The notes beneath the pieces were generated by a model, which saw only the letters and a program-made list of their open reading frames with translations, was not told the DNA's origin and did not search any database. Made by a program: the position numbers and the translations under genes. Positions 1-20,337 of a stretch of 27,189 nt of DNA are shown one piece after another (positions within the stretch are counted from its first letter, which is position 1; every line of letters begins with the position of its first letter). Source of the DNA: a virus; IMG/VR virus record IMGVR_UViG_3300021959_000314, positions 1 through 27,189 of that record. One strand, 5' to 3'.

Positions 1-151
1 TAAAATAAAAAAAAAAAAAAACAAAAAATCTCTGGGGAAGTGTCTATAGTGTAACTCGCGTAACCGCTGCTTGCAAAAAAGTCCTTGACCCGAGGACCGA
101 GGTGCAATAGCTTGCATGTATTCAACAAGTAATCAAGGAAGGAAATACATA
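1..151. other. AT-rich left edge and leader of the first operon
   Basis: Bases 1-30 are almost pure A with a few T and C, and may be an AT-rich leader or an assembly-edge artefact. The rest leads to the first gene. It holds an A-tract followed by TTGACC (85-90), the element GCATGT...AACAAGT (114-130) and the ribosome binding site AAGGAAGG (135-142). An ATG at 116 is in frame with the first gene but has no ribosome binding site. Confidence 0.4.
75..130 (+). promoter_or_regulatory. Candidate promoter/operator upstream of the first operon
   Basis: AAAAAAGTCCTTGACC (75-90) is nearly identical to a sequence at 1315-1331. A second shared block, GCATGTATTCAACAAGT (114-130), matches 13 of 17 positions with 1344-1360. 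TTGACC resembles a sigma-70 -35 box, but the hexamer 17 bp downstream (TAGCTT, 108-113) is a poor -10. The TTGAC box lies about 62 bases before the start codon, against 65 at the other site. A promoter or shared operator is inferred. Confidence 0.4.
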
Positions 152-316
152 ATGGTTTTGCCAAATTTAGAGTTTGCTGTGTTGCGTGTTGCGATTGATC
201 ACATGATTGAGCATCTGGAGGATGTTTGGTTGGACAGTGATGCGGAGCCTTGGGAGCATGAGGAGCTTCACAGTAGGTTGGAAGCCGCCAAGCGATTGAA
301 GGAGCGGTTTTCATGA
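152..316 (+). CDS. Small hypothetical phage protein (54 aa)
   Basis: First gene of the left operon; not recognised. I chose ATG 152 because AAGGAAGG (135-142) sits 9 bases upstream, whereas the in-frame ATG at 116 has no ribosome binding site. The product is a short acidic and probably helical protein, with a hydrophobic start (LEFAVLRVAIDHMIEHL) and a charged C-terminus (LEAAKRLKERF). It has no membrane segment or metal motif. Its stop overlaps the next start as ATGA at 313-316, so the two genes are probably translationally coupled. Position and size suggest an early accessory protein, which is inference. Confidence 0.6.
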   Translation: MVLPNLEFAVLRVAIDHMIEHLEDVWLDSDAEPWEHEELHSRLEAAKRLKERFS

Positions 317-516
317 GTGCCCTTAGCATTGACGAGGCGATGATCAAGCGGTGGCGTGTTGTAGTTGAGCAGCGAAACGTTTTCTACATCGACGAGGACG
401 AAGCCGAAACATCACAAGAAGCACGGCGCATCGCTGCTGAAGAGCGCATCTGGGATGAAGACCAGCGCGGGGAAGACACCTACGATGTTGAAATTACTGT
501 GGAGGAGGACGAGTGA
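313..516 (+). CDS. Small acidic hypothetical protein (67 aa)
   Basis: Starts inside an ATGA overlap with the previous gene and ends in TGATG at the start of the next one. The product is very acidic, with runs such as DEDEAET and a C-terminus ending VEEDE. A central segment (EARRIAAEERIWDEDQR) is likely helical. I recognise no family. Small acidic early proteins in phages sometimes mimic DNA or bind host enzymes, but nothing here proves that. Tight coupling to both neighbours supports it as a real gene. Confidence 0.6.
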   Translation: MSALSIDEAMIKRWRVVVEQRNVFYIDEDEAETSQEARRIAAEERIWDEDQRGEDTYDVEITVEEDE

Positions 517-998
517 TGCCTAATCATTGTTATCAGAGTGTGTACCTTCACGGCCCGACCCATTTGGTGTCGATGCTTTACGATGGCCTGACCCAGAACG
601 GTTACAACCCCCATAATGAGGGTCGCGCCTTAAACCCACAATTCTGTCAGTTGGTTTGTCCCATGCCGTTTGAGGTGTGGGCCCACGAGGAGAGGCGTCC
701 TGATCAACTCATGCCTGACTGGTACGAGTGGCGTGTTGAGAACTGGGGTACGAAGTGGGATGTCTGCGAGGTTGAGATTATTGAGCCTTTGGCGCATGAA
801 GATGTGTTCGACAAATCGTGGTTCTCGTTCCGCTGTTGGACGGCATGGGGTGCGCCTATTCCGGTGTGGGATAAGTTGCATGCGATGGGCATTGAGGTTC
901 AGGCTGATTATCAGGACGAGGGTGGTATGTTTGAGGGTGAGTATCATCACGGCGAGGATCGTTCGTGGGATCCTGAAGATGTATTGGAGGAGGCGTGA
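516..998 (+). CDS. Api92/YubB-like protein with ferredoxin-fold domain
   Basis: A 160-residue protein resembling the DUF1281/YubB ferredoxin-like family (Api92-like) found on plasmids and phages, whose function is unknown. Family hallmarks seen: the N-terminus MPNHCYQSVYL, the signature WYEWRVENWGTKWD at residues 69-82, and a downstream aromatic stretch (FSFRCWTAWGAPIPVWDKL, about 104-121) where the family usually has a Trp/Pro-rich segment. ATG 516 is preferred over GTG 513 because GGAGGAGG (501-508) lies 7 bases before it. It forms TGATG junctions with both neighbours, so it is part of the left accessory operon. Family assignment rests on recalled motifs. Confidence 0.75.
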   Translation: MPNHCYQSVYLHGPTHLVSMLYDGLTQNGYNPHNEGRALNPQFCQLVCPMPFEVWAHEERRPDQLMPDWYEWRVENWGTKWDVCEVEIIEPLAHEDVFDKSWFSFRCWTAWGAPIPVWDKLHAMGIEVQADYQDEGGMFEGEYHHGEDRSWDPEDVLEEA

Positions 999-1084
999 TG
1001 ACAGCGCAGGACATGGAAGATATGTTGGATGCGGTATTTCGCAAAGTGTTTAGGAGTTTAACAGAAGAGGAGAAGAAGAAATGA
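998..1084 (+). CDS. Very small coupled ORF (28 aa)
   Basis: A 28-codon frame starting in a TGATG overlap with the Api92-like gene and ending in an ATGA overlap with the next gene. GGAGGAGG lies just upstream (986-993). It encodes MTAQDMEDMLDAVFRKVF followed by a charged tail ending EEEKKK: one short amphipathic helix with a basic end. Without it there would be an 82-base gap in an otherwise gapless operon. It could instead be a translational relay that carries ribosomes to the next start codon. Confidence 0.5.
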   Translation: MTAQDMEDMLDAVFRKVFRSLTEEEKKK

Positions 1085-1329
1085 TTAGAGAATTTTGGCA
1101 ACGGCTGACGCGCAAGCGTCGGAGCAATAAGAAGTTGACGCGCAAGGAGCAGATCTTGGGTGAGTTGGACCGAGGAGCGGGGACTGCGAAGCAGTTGTCG
1201 GACCGCACGGGATTGAAGCTTACGATTGTTCGGGCGACGATGACCCAGTTACACAAGTCTGGTTTAATTGTGGACACTGGAAAGAAGTCTGGACGCGAGG
1301 GCGTTTGGATTGTGAAAAAAAGTTCTTGA
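1081..1329 (+). CDS. Small winged-helix DNA-binding protein (82 aa)
   Basis: Residues 1-22 are strongly basic (RLTRKRRSNKKLTRK). Residues 23-80 fit a winged helix: EQILGELDRGAG (helix 1), TAKQLSDRTGL (helix 2), KLTIVRATMTQLHKSG (recognition helix), then a wing LIVDTGKKSGREGVWIV. This pattern is typical of ArsR/MarR-type or phage winged-helix regulators. It begins in ATGA overlap with the upstream mini-ORF. A promoter-like box begins within its last codons (1315-1331), so it closes the first transcription unit. A role as an early regulator is inferred from fold and position. Confidence 0.65.
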   Translation: MIREFWQRLTRKRRSNKKLTRKEQILGELDRGAGTAKQLSDRTGLKLTIVRATMTQLHKSGLIVDTGKKSGREGVWIVKKSS

Positions 1330-1360
1330 CTAACGCGCAGAGCGCATGTCACAAACAAGT
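1315..1360 (+). promoter_or_regulatory. Candidate promoter/operator before the RAMP-like gene
   Basis: AAAAAAAGTTCTTGACT (1315-1331) matches the element at 75-90 with one or two differences. GCATGTCACAAACAAGT (1344-1360) matches 114-130. Between the two blocks lies GCGCAGAGCGC, a short inverted repeat. No good -10 hexamer is seen at 16-18 bp spacing. The start codon follows 65 bases after the TTGACT box, with AAGGAG at 1383-1388. Confidence 0.4.
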
Positions 1361-1395
1361 TACTATCAACTAGAAGCCAAGTAAGGAGAAAACAC

Positions 1396-2172
1396 ATGGC
1401 AACGAAGAAAGCACCACAAGAGTCTGCATTGGAAATTCAACCATTGAAGCAGGGTCGCGTTAAACTTCGGATGATGGGCACTACCCCGTTGTATTTCAAC
1501 AGCATGAGCAGCAAGGCTATGCGTGATTTGTTGATTGGTGGGGGTCGCAAGACTGCGGCGCAGAAGAAAGAGATCAAGCACAACCCTGAGCAGGAGTTTC
1601 GTGATTCGGTTTACAAGAAGTCTTTTGGGGATACGTTGTTATGTTTCCCTGCTCCAGGGGTCAAGGGCGCGATGGCTACGGCTGCGTTGGAGACTGACGG
1701 GATTACGAAGACGAGTGTGCAGCGGTTGATTTTTTTACCTCAGACGCATGTTCAGATATGGGGCAAGCCTCAGTTGAAGATTGACATGGTTCGCTCTGCG
1801 GACATGAACAAGACGCCGGACATGCGGACGCGGGCTTATTTGCCTCGTTGGTGTGCGGAGGTTGACATTGCGTATGTTCAGCCGACGTTGAGTGCGTATT
1901 CGATTGTGTCGTTGTTGACGAATGCGGGATCGATTGTTGGGATTGGAGACTTCCGGCAGGAGAAGGGCCGAGGATCGTTTGGCACGTTCCAAGTTCTGAC
2001 TGAGGACAGCATGGGTTCATTTCAGAGTGAGTGGGATGAGTTGATGTTGGAGGATCGAGCGGTTCAGCAGGATGCGATGGACAACCCTGTGTTTGCGGAT
2101 GAGCAGACTGAGGAGTTGATGCAGTTCATGGCGGAGGAGAGATCCCGCCGTGATATTACTTTAGTTGCGTAA
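1396..2172 (+). CDS. Conserved phage protein with RAMP/Cas7-like motifs (258 aa)
   Basis: I know similar proteins from phages only as hypotheticals. Three blocks recall RAMP-superfamily proteins (Cas7/Csm3 type): LRMMGTTPLYFNSMS (24-38), like the N-terminal strand and 'sPL.ig' turn; FPAPGVKGAM (84-93), like the 'iPgsslKGalR' helix; and VGIGDFRQEKGRGSFGTFQV (181-200), like the glycine-rich 'GG...rGfG.v' loop. The last 50 residues are acidic. The match is by eye and needs a structure search; no other Cas gene is nearby. Start: AAGGAG 7 bases before ATG 1396. It sits behind its own promoter-like element and in front of the unusual G/T-rich array. It could bind nucleic acid in recombination, defence or counter-defence. 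Confidence 0.6.
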   Translation: MATKKAPQESALEIQPLKQGRVKLRMMGTTPLYFNSMSSKAMRDLLIGGGRKTAAQKKEIKHNPEQEFRDSVYKKSFGDTLLCFPAPGVKGAMATAALETDGITKTSVQRLIFLPQTHVQIWGKPQLKIDMVRSADMNKTPDMRTRAYLPRWCAEVDIAYVQPTLSAYSIVSLLTNAGSIVGIGDFRQEKGRGSFGTFQVLTEDSMGSFQSEWDELMLEDRAVQQDAMDNPVFADEQTEELMQFMAEERSRRDITLVA

Positions 2173-2175
2173 GAA

Positions 2176-2201
2176 GGATCGGGGGCCGCGAGCCCCCATC
2201 C
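2176..2201 (+). terminator. Hairpin after the RAMP-like gene
   Basis: GGAT-C-GGGGGC (2176-2186), loop CGCGA, GCCCCC-ATCC (2192-2201): a 10-bp stem with one bulged C, four bases after the stop codon. It is followed only by ATTT rather than a full T-run, so it may terminate weakly or act as a 3'-end stabiliser. Confidence 0.5.
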
Positions 2202-2204
2202 ATT

Positions 2205-2780
2205 TGGTCAAGGTTAGACGGTCTGGGTGAGGTGCGGTCAAGCACGTTCGGTTAGGGCGGGGTACGGTCCGGCTGGGTCAGTTACGGCGGTCGGGGCGAG
2301 ATCCGGTTAGGTCTGTTGCGGTTTGTCGCGGTATGTTCAGGCGGTCACGGTGGTTTAGTTCGGGTTGGGCGTGGTAGGTCAGGTAAGGTAAGTCGGTCTA
2401 GGTTGGGTACGGCGGTGTGTGTCGGGTTGTGTTGGGTCAGGGTTTGTTACGGCGGTCATGTTGCGGTTCGGTTGGGTCTTATAAGGCTCGGTTGGTCAAG
2501 GTTAGGCGGTCGGGGTCACTCTAGGTGAGGTGTGATGTGTTCGGTTAAGTTATGGTCACGGTAAGGCGGTCGTGGCACGGCTGCGTTTGGTCGGGTCAGG
2601 TGTGTTCAGGCGGTCGGGGTGAGATGTGTTTCGGTTTTTTCGGTTTTGGTATCGTTTGTTAAGGCGGTCGAGGCGCGGTATGACGAGTTACGTTGCGGTC
2701 AGTCGGGGCGCGGTCACGGTACGGCGGTCGTTGTGTGGCGGGGTTTGGTCCGTTGCGATCAGTCGGGGTACGGCGGTCAA
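2205..2780 (+). repeat. Gene-free G/T-rich array with GGCGGTC repeats
   Basis: About 575 bases with no credible gene. The + strand is mostly G and T: in 2401-2460 I count 29 G, 20 T, 7 C and 4 A. GGT recurs with a rough 5-base rhythm. GGCGGTC occurs at 2286, 2340, 2451, 2505, 2565, 2609, 2663, 2723 and 2772, with GGCGGTG at 2411; spacing is 40-71 bases. Longer words recur too: GGTCACGGTA[A/C]GGCGGTCGT at 2554 and 2712, TGTTCAGGCGGTC at 2334 and 2603, and GGCGGTCGGGG at 2286, 2505 and 2609. Open frames crossing it (2316-2528 and the N-terminal extension from 2619) read Gly/Val/Arg low complexity and are not genes. The array lies between a weak hairpin and the next ribosome binding site. Confidence 0.8.
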
Positions 2781-2807
2781 TTAAACAGCTATATAAGGAG
2801 AAAAGAA

Positions 2808-3305
2808 ATGGCTGGTTTTCCAAAGAAAGAACGTCAAAGAATTATTGACGAATATCTAGCGGCATCTGGGAACAACATGTTTGTTCCGCACGAGTTTGTG
2901 GATTGGTTGGGTGGACAGCCTGATCATGAGGCATATGATTGGTTCTATGGTATGGATGATGCGGAAGCTGCGCGTCAACATCGGATCCAGTTGGCTCGTC
3001 AGATGGCGAGTGGTCTAAGGATCGTGGTTCAAGACACGACGACCAATGATCAGGTGGTTAGTTTATCGGTTCGTGAGTACCCTACGTTCATCAGTCCTGT
3101 GAGTTTACGCAAGAGTGGTGGAGGGTATGAGCGGTTTGATCCTGATAGCAGTGATTCTCAACAGGAATTACGCAGACAGGCGGCGACGGCTATGGCATCT
3201 TGGCTATCAAGATATCGTGGGTGTGCTGAGAACATCGGTTTGGACATGGGTCCTTTGGAGGATATTGCTCAGACGTTGCGGGGTGTTGAGGAGGAAGTTG
3301 CGTGA
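2808..3305 (+). CDS. Conserved hypothetical phage protein (165 aa)
   Basis: ATG 2808 is the start: AAGGAG (2795-2800) lies 7 bases upstream and the protein becomes normal here, while the frame upstream is translated repeat array. The N-terminal half is rich in aromatic and charged residues: ERQRIIDEYLAASGNN, FVPHEFVDWLG, HEAYDWFYGMDD, then RIQLARQMASGLRI. The C-terminal half has a helix RRQAATAMASWLSRYRGCAENIG. I have seen this kind of N-terminus in phage and alphaproteobacterial proteins of unknown function. First gene after the G/T-rich array; its mRNA leader probably includes part of that array if transcription reads through. No function is assigned. Confidence 0.65.
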   Translation: MAGFPKKERQRIIDEYLAASGNNMFVPHEFVDWLGGQPDHEAYDWFYGMDDAEAARQHRIQLARQMASGLRIVVQDTTTNDQVVSLSVREYPTFISPVSLRKSGGGYERFDPDSSDSQQELRRQAATAMASWLSRYRGCAENIGLDMGPLEDIAQTLRGVEEEVA

Positions 3306-3547
3306 TTGAATATTTTACAGCGTTGGTCCTGCATTATGAGGTGCAGGACCATGAGATGGAGACGGTGGTTTGGTTTGAGAACGAGGCTCAATGTCAGGCG
3401 GTCATGGATCAGGACATTGCGATGCCGTTGTACGATGAGCTTTATAGTTTGTACGGCAACAACATCATGATGTTTTGTGAGGTGACAGACAAGCCATCGA
3501 GGGTGGTACGACCGAGGCTTCGACCGGAGGGATTGGGCAATGGGTGA
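3302..3547 (+). CDS. Small hypothetical protein, GTG start (81 aa)
   Basis: Begins at GTG 3302, overlapping the previous stop (GTGA), with GAGGAAG just upstream. The N-terminal part looks like alternating strands and helices (EYFTALVLHYEV, METVVWFENEAQCQAVM), and the C-terminus is basic and proline-containing (RVVRPRLRPEGLG). No family is recognised. It overlaps the next gene by 8 bases, which supports a coupled operon. Confidence 0.55.
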   Translation: MIEYFTALVLHYEVQDHEMETVVWFENEAQCQAVMDQDIAMPLYDELYSLYGNNIMMFCEVTDKPSRVVRPRLRPEGLGNG

Positions 3548-3728
3548 CAGTGATTTAACTACATTCCAAGCGGCTCAGTTGAACTGGCTCAAGCGTCAGG
3601 TTGATGCGTTACAGGAGGAGCGGTATCGCAGGGATGCGAGGCCCAATGTACAACGTGAGTTATTCGCTGCGCGTGAGGAGCTTGATACATATGTTAAGAA
3701 CCTTCGTGAATCGGGCAAGCAGATATGA
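3540..3728 (+). CDS. Small coiled-coil hypothetical protein (62 aa)
   Basis: Start codon overlaps the end of the upstream frame, and its own stop overlaps the next start as ATGA (3725-3728). Nearly the whole protein is predicted helical by eye: QAAQLNWLKRQVDALQEERYRR and QRELFAAREELDTYVKNLRE, with leucine spacing suited to a short coiled coil. Not recognised. Its placement just before an HTH protein makes a regulatory partner possible, but this is a guess. Confidence 0.5.
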   Translation: MGDSDLTTFQAAQLNWLKRQVDALQEERYRRDARPNVQRELFAAREELDTYVKNLRESGKQI

Positions 3729-4072
3729 CAGAGTTTGAGCGCATTAAGTACGAGGATTTGTACCGAACAAAATGGTTGGAGCAGAACATCAAGGACGAGG
3801 CGGCGAACCCGCGTTGGAATGGTGGCATGTCCAACAGTGCTCGCAATGGATTCAAGAAGCACCCATCTGTGAACAAGGGCGGGCGTCCGAAATTGACGTT
3901 ATCCAAGGATGCGGTGATGTTAAACAAGTTGCTGCAACGTGAGCTTTCTTTAACCGATGCGGCGGACATCATGGGCTTGACCGTTAAGTCTTTGCGTCAG
4001 ATTAAATCAAGATACGGGTTACCAAGGAGCAAGGATGAAAAACCTTCTGACGTACATTCCAACGCGGATTAA
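3725..4072 (+). CDS. Small helix-turn-helix protein (115 aa)
   Basis: Residues 74-100 form a convincing helix-turn-helix: LSLTDAADIMGLTVKSLRQI followed by KSRYGLP, like the recognition motif of phage regulators. Just before it, residues 50-56 (NKGGRPK) carry a GRP core that recalls AT-hooks or the basic linker before HTH domains. The N-terminal 45 residues (ERIKYEDLYRTKWLEQNIKDE, then NPRWNGGMSNSARNGF) are basic and aromatic and are not assigned. It is ATGA-coupled to the upstream gene. A DNA-binding regulator is likely; its target is unknown. Confidence 0.6.
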   Translation: MTEFERIKYEDLYRTKWLEQNIKDEAANPRWNGGMSNSARNGFKKHPSVNKGGRPKLTLSKDAVMLNKLLQRELSLTDAADIMGLTVKSLRQIKSRYGLPRSKDEKPSDVHSNAD

Positions 4073-4205
4073 AGAACTGAACCAAGAGATCGATGATATA
4101 CTGTGGGAAGACACCGCGGATCCGAGGATCGAGCAGTTGGTAGAAGAACTCAATTATTTAAAGAGCCAAGAAGAGAAAGGAGAACTCTATGAGCCAGACT
4201 TTTGA
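4035..4205 (+). CDS. Overlapping small ORF (56 aa)
   Basis: Starts within the end of the HTH gene (38-base overlap) behind AAGGAG at 4023-4028, and ends 17 bases inside the next gene. It reads MKNLLTYIPTRIKELNQEID, then an acidic helix-rich stretch (RIEQLVEELNYLKSQEEKGE). Composition is normal for a protein, and it fills a 116-base gap that would otherwise be empty in this operon. No family is recognised. The overlaps on both sides suggest translational coupling. Confidence 0.5.
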   Translation: MKNLLTYIPTRIKELNQEIDDILWEDTADPRIEQLVEELNYLKSQEEKGELYEPDF

Positions 4206-4443
4206 GACGAAGAAAAAGTTCCAGTCGGAAGAGATGACTGTTTTGATAGAGGATCTAACTCATTCCGACAGTGCGTTCGGTGTGAATGAAGAGGGTGACG
4301 GGGTGTTCTTCGGCACCAGGATCGTTGAGAAGATGGAGCTTGAACCTGGAGACGAGGTTACGGCGCACTGCATTCCTAATTATGTGGACAAGCGGGACGA
4401 GATACCGTGGCGCTGCATAAAGATTTCCCACAAGAACGATTAA
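4189..4443 (+). CDS. Small beta-rich hypothetical protein (84 aa)
   Basis: ATG 4189 follows AAAGGAG with good spacing. The sequence suggests a compact beta-barrel: EEMTVLIEDLTHSD, GVFFGTRIVEKMELEPGDEV, TAHCIPNYVDK, then IPWRCIKIS. The 'lepGDeVtahc' strand-turn-strand resembles small OB-fold or cold-shock-like domains that bind nucleic acids. The resemblance is only general, so I do not assign a family. Last gene before the inverted repeat that precedes the ribbon-helix-helix gene. Confidence 0.55.
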   Translation: MSQTFETKKKFQSEEMTVLIEDLTHSDSAFGVNEEGDGVFFGTRIVEKMELEPGDEVTAHCIPNYVDKRDEIPWRCIKISHKND

Positions 4444-4450
4444 CTTGCAA

Positions 4451-4495
4451 CTTGTCCTCCAGTGGGTTAGAAGTAACCAACAAATGGAGGACAAG
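4451..4495 (+). promoter_or_regulatory. Inverted repeat covering the RBS of the RHH gene
   Basis: CTTGTCCTCCA (4451-4461) is the exact reverse complement of TGGAGGACAAG (4485-4495), which holds the GGAGG ribosome binding site of the gene at 4498. A second stem lies inside: GGTTA (4465-4469), loop GAAG, TAACC (4474-4478). As RNA the hairpin would hide the ribosome binding site. As DNA the two arms could be an operator for the RHH protein encoded next. Confidence 0.7.
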
Positions 4496-4497
4496 CT

Positions 4498-4668
4498 ATG
4501 GCTCGTAAGAAGATGAAAGAGAAAGACAAGCAGCAATTTCAGAATGTTGGCTTGATCAAAGAGGATCATGACCTGCTTCGCAAGTTGGCGGACGCAGAGC
4601 AGAGGTCCATGGCACGACAACTATCTGTATTGATTAGAAAAGCTATTGCTGAATTAGAGACGGCTTGA
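4498..4668 (+). CDS. Ribbon-helix-helix (Arc/CopG-like) protein (56 aa)
   Basis: A short gene with a basic N-terminal arm (ARKKMKEKDKQQ), then the ribbon strand FQNVGLIKEDH, helix DLLRKLADAEQ, turn RSM, and helix ARQLSVLIRKAIAELE. This is the classic RHH order and length (Arc is 53 residues). RHH proteins bind DNA as dimers through the beta strand, and are often autorepressors acting on inverted repeats. A perfect 11-bp inverted repeat ends two bases before the start codon, which fits autoregulation, though an RNA switch is also possible. It closes the left operon: a strong terminator follows. Confidence 0.7.
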   Translation: MARKKMKEKDKQQFQNVGLIKEDHDLLRKLADAEQRSMARQLSVLIRKAIAELETA

Positions 4669-4727
4669 TATACTTTACCTACTGCTCGAATAGGTTCACG
4701 CCTGTGGCCTTATTTGCCCTCATCAAC

Positions 4728-4778
4728 TAACCCCGACCCGGCTAGGATTCGCACTGCAACGGTTGGGGTTATTTTTTT
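4728..4778 (+). terminator. Rho-independent terminator of the left operon
   Basis: TAACCCCGACC (4728-4738) pairs with GGTTGGGGTTA (4761-4771) through 11 bp including one G-U, with a 22-base loop, followed by seven T (4772-4778). The right arm overlaps the stop codon of the convergent minus-strand gene. It is oriented for + strand transcripts only. Confidence 0.75.
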
Positions 4779-5017
4779 GCCTCATTAGATTTGCCTTTTT
4801 TGCCTGCGATTTGGTAGTCCTTTTCTTTGGAGTACCCTCGGATTTGTGTGACGTTGGTGTAGGATTTATTCATTCCTTTGAGCAGGGCTTTTGCTACGTC
4901 ATCCTCTAGGCCTGTTTGTTCGGCAAGGACCTTGGCCCCCGTATCGAGGGTCCGAAGTCCTTTCTTATAGTCCACCATGGTTTCGATTATTTCATCGTGG
5001 GTTTTAGACTTAGCCAT
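4769..5017 (-). CDS. Small basic protein downstream of the helicase (82 aa)
   Basis: Read on the minus strand directly after the SNF2-like helicase, overlapping its end by 31 bases. The N-terminal two thirds are helical (HDEIIETMVDYKKGLRTLDTGAKVLAEQTGLEDDVAKALLKG). The C-terminus is a lysine-rich tail ending GKKGKSNEAKK, which could contact nucleic acid. Interestingly 'LDTGAKVLAEQ' resembles the helicase's own C-terminal stretch 'IDIGAKVLGEE'. No family is assigned. Pairing with the helicase suggests a partner, but this is inferred from position only. Confidence 0.55.
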   Translation of the reverse strand: MAKSKTHDEIIETMVDYKKGLRTLDTGAKVLAEQTGLEDDVAKALLKGMNKSYTNVTQIRGYSKEKDYQIAGKKGKSNEAKK

Positions 5018-6456
5018 TCCCTTGCTTCCTCTCCTAATACTTTGGCGCCGATATCGATCTTGGTTCGAAGGGCCTTGACTATGCGTTCATCGATGCTGCC
5101 TTCGCAGATCAGATCGATGTATGTCACGTTGTTCTTTTGTCCGATCCGGTGTGCTCGATCCTCTGATTGGATCCGGGTTTCCAGATTGAAGTCGTTGGCA
5201 TAGTATACCACGAGGTTTGCCTCGGTCAAAGTCAGACCGTATCCTGCGGTGGCGGGGTTACCTACGAAGAATCGAAGTGGGTGGTTTGGATTCTGGAAGT
5301 TCTTGACGATGTCATTACGTTCGTCGTCGGTTGTGTCCCCGAAGTATGCCGCAGCGGATCCTTCTCCAAACTTATCGTTCAGCATTTGTGTGATCTGTTG
5401 GATGTCGTACCGGAAGCGGGACCAGATGATAGCTTTACCGTCGTGCTCGTCCATGATCTCGGTCAGTGCATCCATGCGTTTGGATGGGAAGTACAGCATT
5501 TCACCGTCGTCGGTCTTTAGATGGCCGGACATTATCTGTTGGAGCCGCAGCATCTGCGTGATTACTGCGGGTGCGGTGACCAACTCACCGTCATCAAGCA
5601 GCACCATGGCATGGCGGCGCACATCCTCGTACATCTTGAACTGTTCGGAGGTCATGCCGACATACCTGGCGGTGTAGATTTTGTCGGGGAGATCAAGGCA
5701 GTCCTTCTTCAATACGCGGAAGGAGAACATGTCGATCTTGTTGGTGAGCTCGTCGAGATTCTTGAACCCAATGATTTGTTGGAAGGCTGCTTGACCCATG
5801 GTCTTGCGTTGCACTACGGCGTAGCGTCCTTGGAACGCGTAGTACGAATCATATCCCAAGAGCCCAGGGCGGAGGAACTCGCACTGCGAATATATATCCA
5901 TTGGGCTTTTTGTTATGGGTGAGCCTGTCAAGAGTCTTCTATACTTGAACCCCGCAGCGATTTTCATTAGAGCTTTGGTGCGCTTGGCCTTATGGTTTTT
6001 GATGGTGGTTGATTCGTCGATTGCGATCATACCATTTGAGCCCAGCGCACGAGCCATCCATTCCCCTGCATTCTTACCTTTGAGAGATGAGAATGATTCG
6101 ACGTTCATGACGAAGATGGTCAGGCCGTTGAACTTATCTTTGACTGAGCGCATTTCTTCGGTTTGTTTTTTGTTTGGACTAGATACCCAACGTATGACGC
6201 GATGGGGTATATCATCGGACATATGCTCGGGGATTTCTTTGGCTACCCAGTTGCGATACACGCCTTTGGGTGCGATGACCAAGGCGAAGTTGATCAGCCC
6301 TGATTGATACAGCATGCCCATGTTGTCGATTAGAACTTTGGATTTACCTGTCCCCATCTCCATGAACAAACCAAACTCGATTCGATCCCACCCGTCATCC
6401 AAGGCTTCGGCCTGATGATTAAACGGTGGTAATTTATATTTGTAGTTGACAACCAT
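4987..6456 (-). CDS. SNF2-like superfamily 2 helicase/ATPase
   Basis: A compact 489-residue DNA-dependent ATPase of the SNF2-like group common in phages. Seen: FNHQ Q-motif-like start (12-15); Walker A MGTGKS (34-39); DEST as motif II (147-150); motif III LLTGSPIT (175-182); the C-terminal domain with DALTEIMDEHDGKAIIWSRF; and motif VI RAHRIGQ (434-440) followed by a DLICEGSIDERIV stretch typical of SNF2 enzymes. It lacks accessory chromatin domains, as expected. In phages these proteins are thought to act in replication or recombination, but the exact job is not established. Ribosome binding site GGAGG lies 7 bases before the start. It is one of two minus-strand genes in an otherwise plus-strand half. 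Confidence 0.9.
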   Translation of the reverse strand: MVVNYKYKLPPFNHQAEALDDGWDRIEFGLFMEMGTGKSKVLIDNMGMLYQSGLINFALVIAPKGVYRNWVAKEIPEHMSDDIPHRVIRWVSSPNKKQTEEMRSVKDKFNGLTIFVMNVESFSSLKGKNAGEWMARALGSNGMIAIDESTTIKNHKAKRTKALMKIAAGFKYRRLLTGSPITKSPMDIYSQCEFLRPGLLGYDSYYAFQGRYAVVQRKTMGQAAFQQIIGFKNLDELTNKIDMFSFRVLKKDCLDLPDKIYTARYVGMTSEQFKMYEDVRRHAMVLLDDGELVTAPAVITQMLRLQQIMSGHLKTDDGEMLYFPSKRMDALTEIMDEHDGKAIIWSRFRYDIQQITQMLNDKFGEGSAAAYFGDTTDDERNDIVKNFQNPNHPLRFFVGNPATAGYGLTLTEANLVVYYANDFNLETRIQSEDRAHRIGQKNNVTYIDLICEGSIDERIVKALRTKIDIGAKVLGEEAREWLSLKPTMK

Positions 6457-6532
6457 TATATACCTCCACTATTGTCCACTAACGGATAGCATGGTGCTAC
6501 CGGATAAATCAACCCTGAAGAGGAAAAACTTT
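6457..6532. promoter_or_regulatory. Divergent control region between helicase and replication operons
   Basis: This 76-base gap must start transcription both ways. On the + strand TTGTCC (6472-6477) is followed after 17 bases by TGCTAC (6495-6500), a weak sigma-70-like pair. On the - strand TTGATT (complement of 6507-6512) has a TATCCG-like hexamer about 18 bases downstream. A short inverted repeat TAGCA-TGG-TGCTA (6487-6499) lies between them and could be an operator. An ATG at 6446 in frame with the + gene reads through this region and is not the likely start. Confidence 0.35.
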
Positions 6533-7090
6533 ATGAGCGATATATTTGAAGACTTATACGACGAATCGGAGGCGCTCGCGTCTGTCGATACTGGAACCGG
6601 AAAGCAGTTAAGTCAACTGGTTCGCAAACTTCGCGCTGTTGAGAAAGAGATCAGCGATGCGGAGGACCACATCAAAGCTATGAAGCAAGAGAAGCACAAG
6701 CTTTCGGTCGAGAACATCCCCGCCTTAATGGATGAGATGGGCGTCGAGCGTCTGGATGTGGACGGCTCTGTTGTGGAGCGTAAGATGATTGTTGCTGCGT
6801 CGATACCTGCGGCAAACAAAGAGGCCGCGTTTGATTGGCTTCGGTCCAATGGCTTGGATGACATCATCAAGAATGACATCACCGTGTCCTTTGGTAAGGG
6901 CGAGGATAATGTGGCGGGCGACGTTGTCGGGCTGCTGCAAGAGCGTGGCTTCGATCCGAAGACCAAGACCCACGTTCACCCTTCTACACTCAAAGCCTTC
7001 GTTAAGGAGCGCGTGATAGAAGGTAAGCCGATTGATCTCGATCTGTTCGGGGCTTTCATTTCCAATACAGCACAAATCCGGAGGAAGTAA
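6533..7090 (+). CDS. Coiled-coil phage replication-module protein (185 aa)
   Basis: ATG 6533 is chosen because GAAGAGG lies about 9 bases upstream, and translating further upstream would cross the promoter region. Residues 20-65 form a long charged helix (LVRKLRAVEKEISDAEDHIK, then AMKQEKHKL) fit for a coiled coil. A central part follows (MDEMGVERLDVDGSVVERKM), then a C-terminal domain with VGLLQERGFDPKTKTHVHPS. The architecture (coiled coil then small domain, next to a candidate SSB) recalls phage Gp157-type proteins, but I cannot confirm homology. First gene of the replication operon, so probably expressed early together with the candidate SSB. Confidence 0.65.
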   Translation: MSDIFEDLYDESEALASVDTGTGKQLSQLVRKLRAVEKEISDAEDHIKAMKQEKHKLSVENIPALMDEMGVERLDVDGSVVERKMIVAASIPAANKEAAFDWLRSNGLDDIIKNDITVSFGKGEDNVAGDVVGLLQERGFDPKTKTHVHPSTLKAFVKERVIEGKPIDLDLFGAFISNTAQIRRK

Positions 7091-7091
7091 T

Positions 7092-7883
7092 ATGGGTGCC
7101 GTAGCTAAGAAAAAAAGTGCAGAGTTAAGCACAGATGTCATGGATGACATCCTAGAGTTTGCTGGAGAAGGCGCCGCCTTTGACAGTTCTGAAATGCAGA
7201 TCCCGTTTGTTCGTATTCTGCAAGCGATGTCCCCGCAGCTTAACAAGCGCGAGGCCAGTCACATAAAGGGTTCGGAGCAAGGTGATTTGTTTAACAACGT
7301 CACCATGGAACTGTTCACAGGAGAGGACGGGGTTACTGTCATTCCCTGCTACCAGACTGTTAAGTACCTGGAGTTCGTGCCTCGGGATCAAGGTGGTGGT
7401 TTCCAGGGAGAGATTGCTGCAACCGATCCTGTGTTGCAACAGACTTCCCGCTCGGGATCCAAGGAGATCCTGCCCAACGGCAATGAGTTGGTCAAATCAG
7501 ATCAGCACTTCTGCTTGCTAATTGGTGAGGACGGGATCACGCAACCTGTTGTGATCGACATGAAGTCTAGCCAGTTGAAGGTCAGCCGTCGTTGGAAGAC
7601 CCAGATTGCGATGCAAAAGGTTAAGCATCCAAAGACAGGGCAGATGGTTCTGCCACCCCTGTTCGCTACGATCTGGAAGTTCAGCACTGTTGAAGAGAGC
7701 AATGACCAAGGTACATGGTTCAACTATCAGATCGAAAAGGTCGGGTTGGTTGAGAGCCGTGACCTAATGCTTGAGGCCAAAGCCTTCCGCGACAGTGTCG
7801 CTGCGGGCGAAGTGAAAGCTGCACCGGAGGAAGGGGCTTCCACTCCCACTCCTCCATTGAAGGATGATGAAATCCCCTTCTAG
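7092..7883 (+). CDS. Candidate phage single-stranded-DNA-binding protein (263 aa)
   Basis: ATG 7092 follows GGAGGAAG; the frame is open further upstream but lies in the previous gene. The body is beta-rich: MQIPFVRILQAMSPQL (35-50), GEDGVTVIPCYQTVKYLEFV (77-96), HFCLLIGEDGITQPVVIDM (139-157). The tail is Pro/Ala/Glu-rich and ends PPLKDDEIPF, almost the DDDIPF tail that bacterial SSB uses to recruit replication proteins. I know homologues only as conserved phage proteins, so the SSB role is inferred from that tail and from the position in the replication operon. A terminator directly downstream would allow this gene to be expressed more highly than the enzymes after it. Confidence 0.6.
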   Translation: MGAVAKKKSAELSTDVMDDILEFAGEGAAFDSSEMQIPFVRILQAMSPQLNKREASHIKGSEQGDLFNNVTMELFTGEDGVTVIPCYQTVKYLEFVPRDQGGGFQGEIAATDPVLQQTSRSGSKEILPNGNELVKSDQHFCLLIGEDGITQPVVIDMKSSQLKVSRRWKTQIAMQKVKHPKTGQMVLPPLFATIWKFSTVEESNDQGTWFNYQIEKVGLVESRDLMLEAKAFRDSVAAGEVKAAPEEGASTPTPPLKDDEIPF

Positions 7884-7891
7884 CAGCCTTG

Positions 7892-7921
7892 GGGAGGCGG
7901 ACGGGTATCCGCCTCCCTTTT
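7892..7921 (+). terminator. Intra-operon terminator after the candidate SSB gene
   Basis: GGGAGGCGGA (7892-7901), loop CGGGTA, TCCGCCTCCC (7908-7917), then TTTT. The stem is a perfect GC-rich 10 bp directly after the stop codon. The next gene begins 17 bases later on the same strand, so it probably reduces rather than abolishes downstream transcription. Confidence 0.8.
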
Positions 7922-7937
7922 CACTTGGGAGCAGTAA

Positions 7938-9464
7938 ATGTCACAATCTAAAAAACTGCTTGCCGCGTTTGCCGGAGCCAAGAATGCTCACGGCACGACA
8001 TCCGTAGGTCGGATAGGTCGGAACGGTAAGGCAGACTCAAAGAGTAAGATCATACGCGAGCCGCTGACAGATGCGCTAGTCAAAGCGCACATCAAGGGCG
8101 AGCAGGGGGTCGGGGCCATCCCGATCAACGAAGACAATCAATGTCGGTTCGGTGCTATAGATGTGGATGTCTATGATCTGAACCAGAAAGAAATGCAGGA
8201 CAAGATCCAGAAGCTCAAGCTTCCGCTGCTGCATTGCAGATCTAAATCCGGAGGCGCCCATCTCTATTTGTTTCTAAAGGAGTGGGAGCAAGCAGCCGTG
8301 GTCCGAGAATACCTGACCGAGATGTCGATCATGCTTGGGCACAGTGGCGTTGAGATTTTTCCAAAGCAGGACACGATCATTGCCGAGCGCGGTGATGTTG
8401 GCAACTTTATAAACATGCCGTACTTCAATGCGGAAACCCCGCAGCGGTATTGCTACAACCCCAATGGCGAGGCCATGGAACTGGATGAGTTCTTGGATGC
8501 GGTGGAAAAGAACCGGGTTGAGTTGGCTGACTTGGAAGCTTTGCGCAGCACGACCAAGGTTCGCAAGCACTTCGACGATGGTCCTCCCTGCATACGCAAC
8601 ATCTTTTCGGACGGGCCACAGAGCGAGCCGAGGAACAAGCTTTTGTTTTTCATGGGCGTGTACTGCAAGAAGAAGTTTCCGGATAGTTGGCAAGCCTCCC
8701 TGGAGGAATACAACCGCACGTTATTCTCGCCGCCCCTTCCATCCTCAGAGGTACTGACCGTAATCAAACAGCACGAGAAGAAAGACTGGGGGTATACCTG
8801 TAAGGACGAACCGTTCAAGTCCTACTGCGACCCATCTCTGTGCGTCTTGGCAAAGCACGGGATCAGCGATGATGCGCCTGATGCACCGCAGGTTGGTGGG
8901 CTTACGATCATGTTGTCTGAGCCTCGGTTATATTTCATGGATGTAAACGGGTTGCGGATTCAGTTGAGCTCAGAGCAGTTGCAGAATCAAACGCTGTGGC
9001 AGCGAGCTTGCATGGAGCAATGTAACTTTATGCCGCCGACTACTAAGCCACAGAAGTGGCAGCAGATGGTCAACAGTTTGATGAGCCAAGCAACGTACAT
9101 CGATGTGCCGTATGAGGAGACGATTGCGGGTCAGTTTAAGGAGCACTTGTTTTCCTACTGCACCAGTCACATTCGCGCCATGGCTCCAGAAGAAATTGAG
9201 ATGAATAAACCGTGGACCGATGGTGGTGTAACGAAGTTTAAGTTGGAAGGCCTGTTGGAATATCTGCACCATCGAAGGTTTGTTGGTCAGACCCGAGCGC
9301 ACATTATCCAGATGATACGGGACATGGGCGGGGACAATGGGATCCAACATGTTACTAAAAAGAAAGGGCAGCGGACAACGATACGATGTTGGTATGTCCC
9401 TGCTTTTGAAGAAGATGAAACCGAATTGCCTGTGAAGGAGATATCAAATGACATCCCATTCTAA
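7938..9464 (+). CDS. Archaeo-eukaryotic-type primase (PriS-PriL-like fusion)
   Basis: A 508-residue primase. AEP catalytic motifs: FGAIDVDVYD with the metal-binding Asp pair D75 and D77; CRSKSGGAHLYLFL with H108; and the later VEIFPKQ (138-144) and GNFINMPYF. A PriL-like part follows with four spaced cysteines, C218 (GPPCIRNIF), C288, C297 and C302 (CDPSLCVLAKHGI), resembling the iron-sulfur ligands of primase large subunits. Other AEP fusions of this kind occur in phages and in TOTE-type systems. No helicase motif is present; the C-terminal 200 residues are unassigned. It ends NDIPF, like an SSB tail. Start: GGGAG 6 bases before ATG 7938. It lies downstream of the intra-operon terminator. 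Confidence 0.8.
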   Translation: MSQSKKLLAAFAGAKNAHGTTSVGRIGRNGKADSKSKIIREPLTDALVKAHIKGEQGVGAIPINEDNQCRFGAIDVDVYDLNQKEMQDKIQKLKLPLLHCRSKSGGAHLYLFLKEWEQAAVVREYLTEMSIMLGHSGVEIFPKQDTIIAERGDVGNFINMPYFNAETPQRYCYNPNGEAMELDEFLDAVEKNRVELADLEALRSTTKVRKHFDDGPPCIRNIFSDGPQSEPRNKLLFFMGVYCKKKFPDSWQASLEEYNRTLFSPPLPSSEVLTVIKQHEKKDWGYTCKDEPFKSYCDPSLCVLAKHGISDDAPDAPQVGGLTIMLSEPRLYFMDVNGLRIQLSSEQLQNQTLWQRACMEQCNFMPPTTKPQKWQQMVNSLMSQATYIDVPYEETIAGQFKEHLFSYCTSHIRAMAPEEIEMNKPWTDGGVTKFKLEGLLEYLHHRRFVGQTRAHIIQMIRDMGGDNGIQHVTKKKGQRTTIRCWYVPAFEEDETELPVKEISNDIPF

Positions 9465-17799: not shown

Positions 17800-20337
17800 C
17801 TATTCAAGCCCCGCTACATCATACCCTTTATTTTTAAGTCGTGTTAGCATAACGCTTTTCAACTCTGGTTTGGTTTTAAGAACACTTTTGTACTCAGCTA
17901 TGGCTTGTTCTTGAGTAGGTCTATCAGCCTCAGTGATTTCTTCAGAGACTACTCGATCCAAATATGTGTTTAACTTAGAGGGGTCAAGTTGACCATTGTC
18001 ATCCAGAAGAGCAGGGTAATCAAAAGGACTGCGAACAATAAGCTCTTTTAAACGAGTTCTTTCTCTGGTTGATGTGTATTTATCTGACCCTACATTACGA
18101 GCGCCAACAAGCTGCAAATCCCTGCCGAATTTTGTTTCGGCATCTTCTAATTGAAACGCTCGATTCATCGCAGCCATTTTAACTTTATCTGTACGCGCTT
18201 GCTGAGTGGCTCGATCCTGCTTCATCATCTTGGTGCCCGCAAGCAACCCGTTGGCTATGTTGGACAGAGCATTGGGGCTTTCGCCCGCGGCTATAGCAAA
18301 TCCAATCATTGCCATGTTGTGCCACATTTCCTTCTCAGCGTCTTTGTCTTTCATGCCTAGCATTTCGCTAAACATTCTCTCATACGCCTTGACCGATTCT
18401 TTGGGAGACAAGTTAACTTCTTGGCCTGTCATCTCAGAAAAGATTTGATTGGACGTATCTGTGGCTTTTTCCTCGGGCGTTTTATTTGAATTAGCAATTT
18501 TTACAATAGGCTCGAGGTTCGAGGGCCCAGATCTACCCGCATTCTCCGCCGCTTCTCTTCGTTGCTCCGGGGTTAAATCAGGAGTCGTTTGATCACCGCC
18601 TACTTCCTCGTCATCGGTTTCTACAGCCGCCGCTTCGGCTTCGGCTTCTACAACCTCGGGTTTTGCTGCGGCTTCCGCCTTTTGGAGTTGTTGCGCCTCA
18701 ATCTCATCCAGTGCATATGGCACATCTTTAAACGGTTTAGTCCTACTAAGAACTTGATCCACCGCAGAGGGTGGAGCCTCGGGTTCTTTGGCCGCAATTT
18801 CACGAGCGTCTCTCGCAGCCTTCGCTGCTAGATCTAAAAACTCTCCAGATCCTGTTGCTTCAAACCTTTGCTGCGCATCCTCTGCAACACGTTCAGCTTC
18901 CATTTGAGGCTGTACGTTCGTGTCGAAGTTGTACTGATCTATAACCATCTTCTGCACGTTAGCTTCTGCTCTTGATCCGCCTCCTAGCATGATCTCCGCA
19001 TTGCCTCCGCGTGGGCGGATGGCCCCTGTTTCTGGGTTGTAGTCAAAGACAGACATACCCATCGTGCCCTGATTTAAGGTCACTGGAACAAAACCTTCGT
19101 TCTCCGCAGCTGCGGCTAATTCTTCGGAAGCAAGTGCGGCTACAGGATCAAAATCACCTGCCAAGACTTCTTGTGTTCCCATGCTATCACCAAACCGAGG
19201 ATCCGTTCCCATTGGAATTAAATCTGGTGGCGGGTTCGGCATACTTGAGATGGCTTCATCTAAAAGACCTTGCCGCTGTGCAAGCTCAAGAACATCGGCG
19301 TTTCCTTCAATAATTGCTTGCTGTATTTGCTCAGTAGACAGGCTTGGCTCTTCGGATGTTGCCAAAATCTGTTCGGAAGGAGTTGCGTTGCCCTGCCCTT
19401 GAGCAAGTATGGCTTTACCCCGCAAAACAGGGTCTTCAATGTCTGACAACTGTTGCGTAAAATTACGAGCTTGGCCTTGTGGAACAGGAACAGCCATAGC
19501 CATGTCCTCTCCAGCAATGCGTTGTTGAACAGACAAGGGGCTGTCCTCTTGAGAAGTCATCCCCGCTAACGCCGCCGCGGCTTCTCCCATGGGCCCGCCT
19601 TGGTTTTCAGCAATAGAGCGGGCAGCAATTATATCTTCCATCGTAGGACTGCCGTCAGGAGTCATCCCAGCCAACGCCGCCGCGGCTTCTCCCATGGGCC
19701 CGCCTTGGTTTTCAGCGATAGAGCGGGCAGCAATTATATCTTCCATTGTAGGCGCCGCTGGAGCAGTAGGCTCAAACCCATCCGCCATAGGCATGCCAGT
19801 GCCACGCATTAACTCACCCATGCCTAGTCTAGGATCGGCTGTAAATTCAGGGGTGGTTACCGGATCCATTGTTTCAGGAACGGGTTGTGTGAACACACGA
19901 GGTTGTCCCTGCGGGACAGGCACAGCCATAGCCATGTCCTCTTCCGCAATCCGCTCGCCTTGAGTAAGAATCTCCCGCTTCAAGGAGGGCTCTTCTATCT
20001 CAACACCTGATTCTTCGTGAAATATCTTGTCTCGAATAACTCTAAAGGTATTACCTAAAAACCGAAGTATAGATCCTTGAACCGCATCATGCGCTGCGTG
20101 AACCTGAGCGCCTAAGTTACGATCAAGTGCTCGGAAATCCATAGGAGTTCGGCTAGACGAAGCAAGTTGATCCAAGGCTCCCTCGCCAGAGATTGCTCTT
20201 TCTCGAACGGTGCCACCACGCTCAAACTTCTGTACCTCATTCATTAACGGCTCGGACGAAGTCATGATGCCGCTCATCTGGGACAAACGGTTTCTTGCGC
20301 CTCGATTCGAAAAGAGCTTTCTGTCGTTTACGTTCAT
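17800..20337 (-). CDS. Large virion-type protein with internal repeats (845 aa)
   Basis: AAGGAG sits within the end of the upstream gene, a few bases before ATG 20337. The N-terminus is basic (NVNDRKLFSNRGARNRLSQM). Residues 129-289 contain a nested repeat: RIAEEDMAMAVPVPQGQ (129-145), a 35-residue unit starting PTMEDIIAARS at 196, the same unit again at 231, then RIAGEDMAMAVPVPQGQ (273-289). The middle is Pro/Glu/Ala-rich and probably disordered. The C-terminal 200 residues are helical and charged. No enzyme motif is seen. Its place between two other large low-complexity proteins suggests an internal virion component. Confidence 0.65.
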   Translation of the reverse strand: MNVNDRKLFSNRGARNRLSQMSGIMTSSEPLMNEVQKFERGGTVRERAISGEGALDQLASSSRTPMDFRALDRNLGAQVHAAHDAVQGSILRFLGNTFRVIRDKIFHEESGVEIEEPSLKREILTQGERIAEEDMAMAVPVPQGQPRVFTQPVPETMDPVTTPEFTADPRLGMGELMRGTGMPMADGFEPTAPAAPTMEDIIAARSIAENQGGPMGEAAAALAGMTPDGSPTMEDIIAARSIAENQGGPMGEAAAALAGMTSQEDSPLSVQQRIAGEDMAMAVPVPQGQARNFTQQLSDIEDPVLRGKAILAQGQGNATPSEQILATSEEPSLSTEQIQQAIIEGNADVLELAQRQGLLDEAISSMPNPPPDLIPMGTDPRFGDSMGTQEVLAGDFDPVAALASEELAAAAENEGFVPVTLNQGTMGMSVFDYNPETGAIRPRGGNAEIMLGGGSRAEANVQKMVIDQYNFDTNVQPQMEAERVAEDAQQRFEATGSGEFLDLAAKAARDAREIAAKEPEAPPSAVDQVLSRTKPFKDVPYALDEIEAQQLQKAEAAAKPEVVEAEAEAAAVETDDEEVGGDQTTPDLTPEQRREAAENAGRSGPSNLEPIVKIANSNKTPEEKATDTSNQIFSEMTGQEVNLSPKESVKAYERMFSEMLGMKDKDAEKEMWHNMAMIGFAIAAGESPNALSNIANGLLAGTKMMKQDRATQQARTDKVKMAAMNRAFQLEDAETKFGRDLQLVGARNVGSDKYTSTRERTRLKELIVRSPFDYPALLDDNGQLDPSKLNTYLDRVVSEEITEADRPTQEQAIAEYKSVLKTKPELKSVMLTRLKNKGYDVAGLE
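19556..19752 (-). repeat. Tandem 105-bp repeat inside the 845-residue protein gene
   Basis: A 92-base sequence at 19556-19647 recurs at 19661-19752 with only a few changes, in frame at a 105-base (35-codon) offset. It is flanked by a second repeated pair, 19473-19521 and 19901-19953, giving an A-B-B-A order. Confidence 0.9.

Follow-up and report, generated by a model that had tools for sequence, protein, structure and literature searches.

The stretch from 2205 to 2778 on the + strand of the analysed window (the whole 27,189-nt viral DNA of IMG/VR record IMGVR_UViG_3300021959_000314) is, with a probability of about 0.94, the guide-RNA array of a VIPR (Viral Interference Programmable Repeat) system, whose steps of action can be proposed by inference. 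VIPR itself is already known from a 2026 preprint (PMC13142463). According to that source, the system combines a RAMP protein, for which an origin before the CRISPR RAMPs is proposed, with guide RNAs (vrRNAs) that alternate GGY and NN; each vrRNA is made of 9-16 tandem YNNGG repeats with hypervariable NN, and double-stranded DNA is recognized through the NN bases with one base skipped between pairs. The preprint gives a satellite phage and Pseudomonas prophages as natural targets, and staggered or ribozyme-interspersed arrays for some of the seven published types (PMC13142463). The novelty of the current case lies in the dense array without tails and in guides directed at protein-family motifs in hallmark genes of phages. 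This marine phage thus seems to be equipped in advance with an arsenal against its competitors, which would act through repression of their genes.

The element is a member of the VIPR group: it is phage-borne, it possesses a Vipr RAMP and a hypervariable GKY/NN array, and its guides have non-self targets that are read with a 1-nt skip at the wobble position. The structured 3' tail is missing, and thus the array is VIPR, but not type II. A further departure from published VIPR is that the second base of the triplet is often T (GKY in the window, mainly GTT in a distant clade), although the consensus is a related one. The remark of the preliminary description that no described element resembles this one was fair, but VIPR is described in the 2026 preprint (PMC13142463).

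The observations in that description were confirmed and go far beyond chance. About 575 nt at 2205-2778 are indeed without a gene; short ORFs found there (e.g. 2316-2528) are incidental, and a coding sequence across the array was rejected on the grounds that its ORFs are short and do not keep step with the 5-nt rhythm. The described bias of the + strand to G and T holds (G+T = 420/586 bases), and so does the count of GGCGGTC, which occurs 9 times exactly at 2286-2772, together with one GGCGGTG at 2411. Its excess over chance was likewise substantiated, as dinucleotide-preserving shuffles (n=2000) gave a mean of 0.4 and a maximum of 3. GGT, said to recur between these repeats roughly every five bases, was seen 63 times against 42.9 expected (sd 3.9), and the longer words said to be reused, GGTCACGGTA and TGTTCAGGCGGTC, are repeated within the array. 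The identity autocorrelation proposed as a check of the 5-base rhythm detected a coherent period of about 4.92 nt, with z of about 5-6 at lags 5 and 10; z is still about 3 at lags 49, 54, 60, and 64, so the period is coherent beyond 60 nt. No tRNA and no inverted repeats were found within the array, covariance models of Rfam RNAs (e.g. hammerhead) gave no match in or near it at E up to 1, and a nucleotide search of the phage collection with window positions 1-8000 returned a short helicase match only.

The rhythm reflects a simple grammar, in which a GKY triplet is followed by two variable bases. When parsed end to end by dynamic programming, the array consists of 116 GKY triplets separated by 101 two-base, 12 one-base, and 2 three-base spacers. 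The third base of the triplet is Y in 116/116 cases and the first is G in 108/116, and the commonest forms are GGT (43), GTT (21), GGC (20), and GTC (18). All 16 dinucleotides are used in the two-base spacers without strong bias, in close to uniform proportions. GGCGGTC can be read as GGC-G-GTC, that is, a triplet, a one-base spacer G, and another triplet. It is a punctuation mark: the one-base spacer shifts the phase, breaks the rhythm, and marks a segment border. These marks divide the array into about 10 guides of 8-13 dinucleotides each. A scorer for such arrays, run over the window, reached 179 at the array and at most 10 anywhere else. The last delimiter, at 2772-2778 (+), ends the array; AATTAAACAGCTATATAAGGAG and the next gene come after it, and this 3' end is conserved in relatives. 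Both three-base spacers are CAC (2557-2559 and 2715-2717) and occur within GGTCACGGTA(A/C)GGCGGTC, toward the end of guide 6 and of guide 9. The target of guide 9 continues with a His codon that agrees with the CA of this spacer, and the additional base may thus be tolerated or may form part of a 3' handle.

The gene 5' of the array (vipr, 1396-2172, +) encodes a 258-aa RAMP-type protein of the Vipr family, with an RRM core and the glycine-rich loop NAGSIVGIGDFRQEKGRGSFG, as judged from sequence profiles and a predicted structure. The protein has no match in Pfam. Its best match in the PDB is 36pp, 'SUSP1 Vipr protein', both in phmmer with the single sequence (E 0.027) and in hmmsearch with a profile of 20 relatives (E 2e-4). 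hhalign with SUSP1 Vipr gave a probability of 95.9 over 57 columns at the G-loop region NAGxxxGxGDxR; sequence similarity to SUSP1 Vipr is confined to this region of about 55 residues. An AlphaFold2 model of medium confidence (pLDDT 71) was searched with Foldseek, and 40/40 matches at E <= 1e-3 were CRISPR effector subunits (type III-A Csm, type VII, and others), with E of 2.5e-5 to the Csm and type VII RAMP subunits and subunits of the Csm/Cas7 type as the best fold matches; TM-scores were about 0.3-0.5.

Two further elements flank the array. A hairpin, GGAT-C-GGGGGC-CGCGA-GCCCCC-ATCC (2176-2201, +), separates the stop codon of vipr from the array, and a stable hairpin of varying sequence occupies the same place in near-clade relatives. 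The + strand has no T-run here, and a classical vipr terminator was rejected; the hairpin may be a processing or boundary element. In loci L071 and L073 a hairpin 5' of the array is followed by a T-run. On the other side, a gene for a 165-aa protein (phrog_15946; 2808-3305, +) adjoins the array. It is present in about 60 related loci, is located between vipr and the array in the distant clade, and is the best candidate for an accessory gene. A fold search with its product found no significant match, the best being a weak similarity to RepE (E 0.27).

Some other features of the window were recorded. A PHROG_2402/Pam3_Gp34-like protein with C-terminal DDEIPF is encoded at 7068-7883; acidic tips of this kind are typical of single-stranded DNA-binding proteins. 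The primase downstream of it ends in NDIPF. A primase with an AEP-TOTE domain (PF22548), a domain known from TOTE conflict systems, occupies 7938-9464 in the phage replication module. At 19555-19752, a 105-bp tandem repeat of two copies, 95% alike, lies within the minus-strand ORF 17800-20337.

Scanning IMG/VR with the 258-aa protein yielded 75 loci with 45-100% identity. A G/T-rich array is present in every locus whose contig extends to the array position, while 4 contigs stop short of it; the search of related contigs proposed earlier thus finds a similar array in the corresponding position of about 70 IMG/VR contigs, each assembled independently. In the most distant loci (L065-L074) a gene stands between the Vipr protein and the array, the triplet is mostly GTT, and the delimiters include GGCAGTT and GTCGGTT. 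Among 234 unique guides of the near clade, the entropy of the interior dinucleotides is 3.7-3.97 of 4 bits. Whole guides are gained or lost as units between close relatives. Comparison of L061 with L050, whose Vipr proteins have clearly diverged, shows every NN identical and 6 triplet bases different, and guide pairs of L061 and L058 with L050 keep all NN, with 6-7 GKY bases changed. The persistence of NN while GKY bases change between diverged phages implies that the information sits in the dinucleotides. Homologous guide variants keep the encoded amino acid: CT/CG corresponds to Arg AGR/CGN and AA/AG to Leu TTR/CTN. In the guide-5 homologues of related phages, these variants leave the peptide unchanged and differ only in which Arg or Leu codon is matched.

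The guides were decoded by the published 1-nt-skip rule, and exact matches were sought in public collections (IMG/VR, GTDB genomes), with two-fold ambiguity permitted only at positions where homologous guides differ. The collection scans covered guides 1, 2, 4, 5, 6, 8, 9, and 10. Seven of the ten guides match conserved sites exactly, and the skipped base falls almost always at the codon wobble position. Guide 5 (AT-GC-TC-TG-CT-AA-TC-TG-AA-TA; 2458-2504, +) matched at least 120 stretches, and 79 of the 80 inspected were the tyrosine-recombinase catalytic motif FHDLRHEA(I/M) in antisense, with every skipped base at a wobble position. Guide 9 (GA-GC-AT-GA-AC-GC-CA-GG-GC-CA(C)-AC; 2670-2722, +) likewise had at least 120 matching stretches; of the 80 inspected, 79 were EAI(E/D)TAQGA of the HK97-type large terminase, in sense orientation and with the skipped base at the wobble position. 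Guide 4 (TA-TG-AC-GG-GT-GG-GT-GG-AG-TT-AC; 2399-2450, +) had 10 matches, 9 of which are NLPTPTPVQY of the T7-type large terminase, antisense and in wobble phase. All 15 matches of guide 10 (GT-GT-GG-TT-CC-GC-CA-GG-AC; 2730-2771, +) are VVGFPAHGT of DUF7227/phrog_2554 proteins, sense and in wobble phase. Guide 8 (GG-GA-GT-TC-TT-CG-TT-AT-TT-AA; 2616-2662, +) had 53 matches, 49 of them antisense in frame 0 and nearly all in a BppU_N-like tail protein of about 108 aa, at its N-terminus IKxNDTSP.

The two remaining decoded guides have fewer matches. Guide 1 (TG-GA-GC-CA-AC-CG-AG-GG-AC-CC-TG-CA-AC; 2224-2285, +) reads RCEA(Q/R)TRRGTPC of an HGGxSTGP-motif protein in sense; it matched L203 at 24/24 bases and three places in the 84,980 species genomes of GTDB, all of the Roseobacter group (Ascidiaceihabitans, Paracoccaceae, Planktomarina). 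Guide 2 (GG-GA-CC-TA-CT-GC-TT-GC-AT-CA; 2293-2339, +) matched two phage family A DNA polymerases in sense at GDPY(L/I)AFA. Guide 6 (GG-CA-TA-GA-GT-GT-CG-AA-AT-CA(C)-AA; 2512-2564, +) is without a target, with no exact match in IMG/VR. Guide 7 (GT-AC-TG-TT-CG-CA-GT-CA; 2572-2608, +) found none among the collected loci, and guide 3 (2347-2391, +), which is irregular and contains two extra one-base spacers, is undecoded.

Several controls bear on these matches. On a 13-kb contig (L081, IMGVR_UViG_3300024475_000404), the guides of the whole family gave 6 exact and 10 one-mismatch matches with a skip of 1, compared with 0 and 0.3 for shuffled guides; skips of 0, 2, and 3 gave no exact match there. 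This contig carries an integrase, PolA, and an HGGxSTGP gene, and is targeted at several sites by more than 10 different guides of the array family, from several phages. Across 323 target-side loci, the 231 guides that had played no part in the choice of loci produced 9 exact matches under skip 1, a few of which are variants of one another or share a gene and are therefore not fully independent; the same guides gave 0 under any other skip rule and 0 when shuffled. Several of the 9 lie in additional hallmark sites of phages, for instance DEVGQVRGP of terminase. Skip rules of 0, 2, and 3, with no excess of matches, were rejected. Shuffled-guide controls were run on L081, on the 323 target-side loci, and on the array-bearing relatives; targets within the array-bearing phages themselves showed no excess over shuffled guides. 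By our own estimate, chance would supply a few matches at most per collection scan, and the zero of guide 6 agrees with this. No site in the window itself comes closer than 3 bases to any of its guides (the minimum is 3 to 7 mismatches), or closer than 4 to those seven for which targets were found. Several target contigs share metagenomes with array contigs (e.g. ids 3300025652, 3300034375, 3300034418, 3300021958).

A mechanism may be proposed from these data. The + strand of the array would be transcribed, and the RNA would be cut or used as delimiter-bounded units. Vipr subunits would polymerise along the guide RNA, one per pentanucleotide, with GKY held and NN presented. Where the double-stranded DNA of another phage, co-infecting or resident, matches a guide, the complex would bind it and prevent integrase, terminase, polymerase, and tail genes from being transcribed. 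The wobble skip and the choice of motifs strongly constrained at the protein level would together allow one guide to cover a gene family and make synonymous escape ineffective. The earlier suggestion of a multi-site protein-binding RNA came near the mark, one RAMP subunit being expected per pentanucleotide; the units are, specifically, guide RNAs whose variable dinucleotides encode targets. Within VIPR, the array probably represents a dense, tail-less type with one-base phase shifts as punctuation. Its guides would be selected against signatures at the protein level, namely motifs with a catalytic or structural role in integrases, terminases, polymerases, and tail proteins, and would give a single phage a broad panel able to recognise hundreds of unrelated competitors.

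The functional guides might instead be overlapping, staggered RNAs that run across the delimiters, with the one-base spacer as part of what is read. Some target matches use dinucleotides up to the delimiter itself, guides for the integrase site are found in shifted registers, and the preprint names 'staggered arrays with overlapping vrRNAs' (PMC13142463). This arrangement is nevertheless rather unlikely, since every decoded target is complete inside one delimited segment, and the last dinucleotide ahead of the delimiter has an A-rich bias among near-clade guides, as a boundary would show. Cas7-type RAMPs of type III CRISPR bind RNA, and the guides might by analogy act on target mRNA instead of DNA. 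Guides 1, 2, 9, and 10, however, have mRNA sense and could not pair with it, while guides 4, 5, and 8 are antisense; the occurrence of both orientations fits DNA targeting, not mRNA pairing. Binding of double-stranded DNA is moreover reported for SUSP1 in the preprint (PMC13142463), and action on mRNA is improbable.

The strong G/T strand bias could also suggest a DNA element with protein-binding repeats: a replication origin of the R-loop or G-rich kind, a site for packaging, or a recombination hot spot of G/T-rich DNA preferred by RecA, which is reported to favour TGG repeats (PMC3763553). Such an element would leave unexplained the exact, wobble-phased matches of seven guides to genes of other phages, the turnover of whole guides among close relatives, and the adjacent RAMP gene, and its probability is very small. 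A degenerate minisatellite or an assembly artefact, to which the recurring words might point, is refuted, as separate assemblies, about 70 in all, contain the element, and among them are 45%-identical relatives with another triplet and other delimiters. A Chi-like or RecA hot spot, an origin, a packaging site, and a minisatellite were accordingly rejected as incompatible with the decoding results. The replication origin, the packaging or recombination site, and the degenerate minisatellite put forward in the preliminary description are thus left unsupported: the dinucleotides decode to exact sites in other phages, which argues strongly against all of them.

Reading the stretch as a VIPR array has wider implications. 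The VIPR code is confirmed independently, from sequence alone, in uncultivated marine phages; the arrays predict targets, and these targets are real genes in the correct codon phase. VIPR guides can operate on protein-family motifs, whereas a contiguous CRISPR spacer cannot, as synonymous changes break it. A gap in about 70 contigs becomes a readable record of phages competing for shared hosts, probably of the Roseobacter group. Moreover, the dense format delimited by single bases is a natural design for multiplexed guides.

Among known systems, type II VIPR of SUSP1 (Escherichia phage SUSP1/Pseudomonas fulva prophage; PMC13142463; PDB 36pp) shares with the window a phage-encoded RAMP Vipr with a G-loop, a pentanucleotide RNA of triplet and NN, targets on either strand read with a 1-nt skip at the wobble position, and the location of these targets in competing genetic elements. 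SUSP1, however, has four separate vrRNAs of about 100 nt, each with an invariant 3' tail, whereas the window packs about 10 tail-less guides in tandem, set apart by a 7-nt delimiter that shifts the phase. The triplet is GKY in the window and GGY in SUSP1, and conserved protein motifs in hallmark genes of many phages are targeted instead of one satellite/prophage locus. The staggered VIPR arrays (fig. S18 of PMC13142463, as mentioned in its text) are also multi-guide and possibly have the architecture of the window.

Class 1 CRISPR-Cas systems (Csm3/Cas7) resemble the window in the RAMP fold, in the guide array, and probably in periodic contacts between subunits and guide. They differ in that the window has no palindromic repeats and no contiguous spacers, and pairing proceeds by dinucleotides with skips; the repeated mark is only 7 nt long and the remainder is degenerate, unlike a CRISPR repeat array. 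Of those window proteins that were compared with Pfam and PHROGs, none was Cas1/Cas2 or the product of any other cas gene.

The match list of the Vipr homologue includes many mycobacteriophages. Arrays were examined in two actinophages, the Gordonia phage Ecliptus (OP820472.1; L078, from 3129) and the Mycobacterium phage Brocalys (NC_031262.1; L079, from 2136). In both, a Vipr homologue of about 30% identity adjoins a GGY/NN array with one-base spacers (GGC-a-GGC). These arrays differ from that of the window in having mostly GGC triplets; they are unannotated, and in Brocalys the array lies upstream of the gene. Ecliptus and Brocalys are cultivable systems in which the mechanism can be tested.
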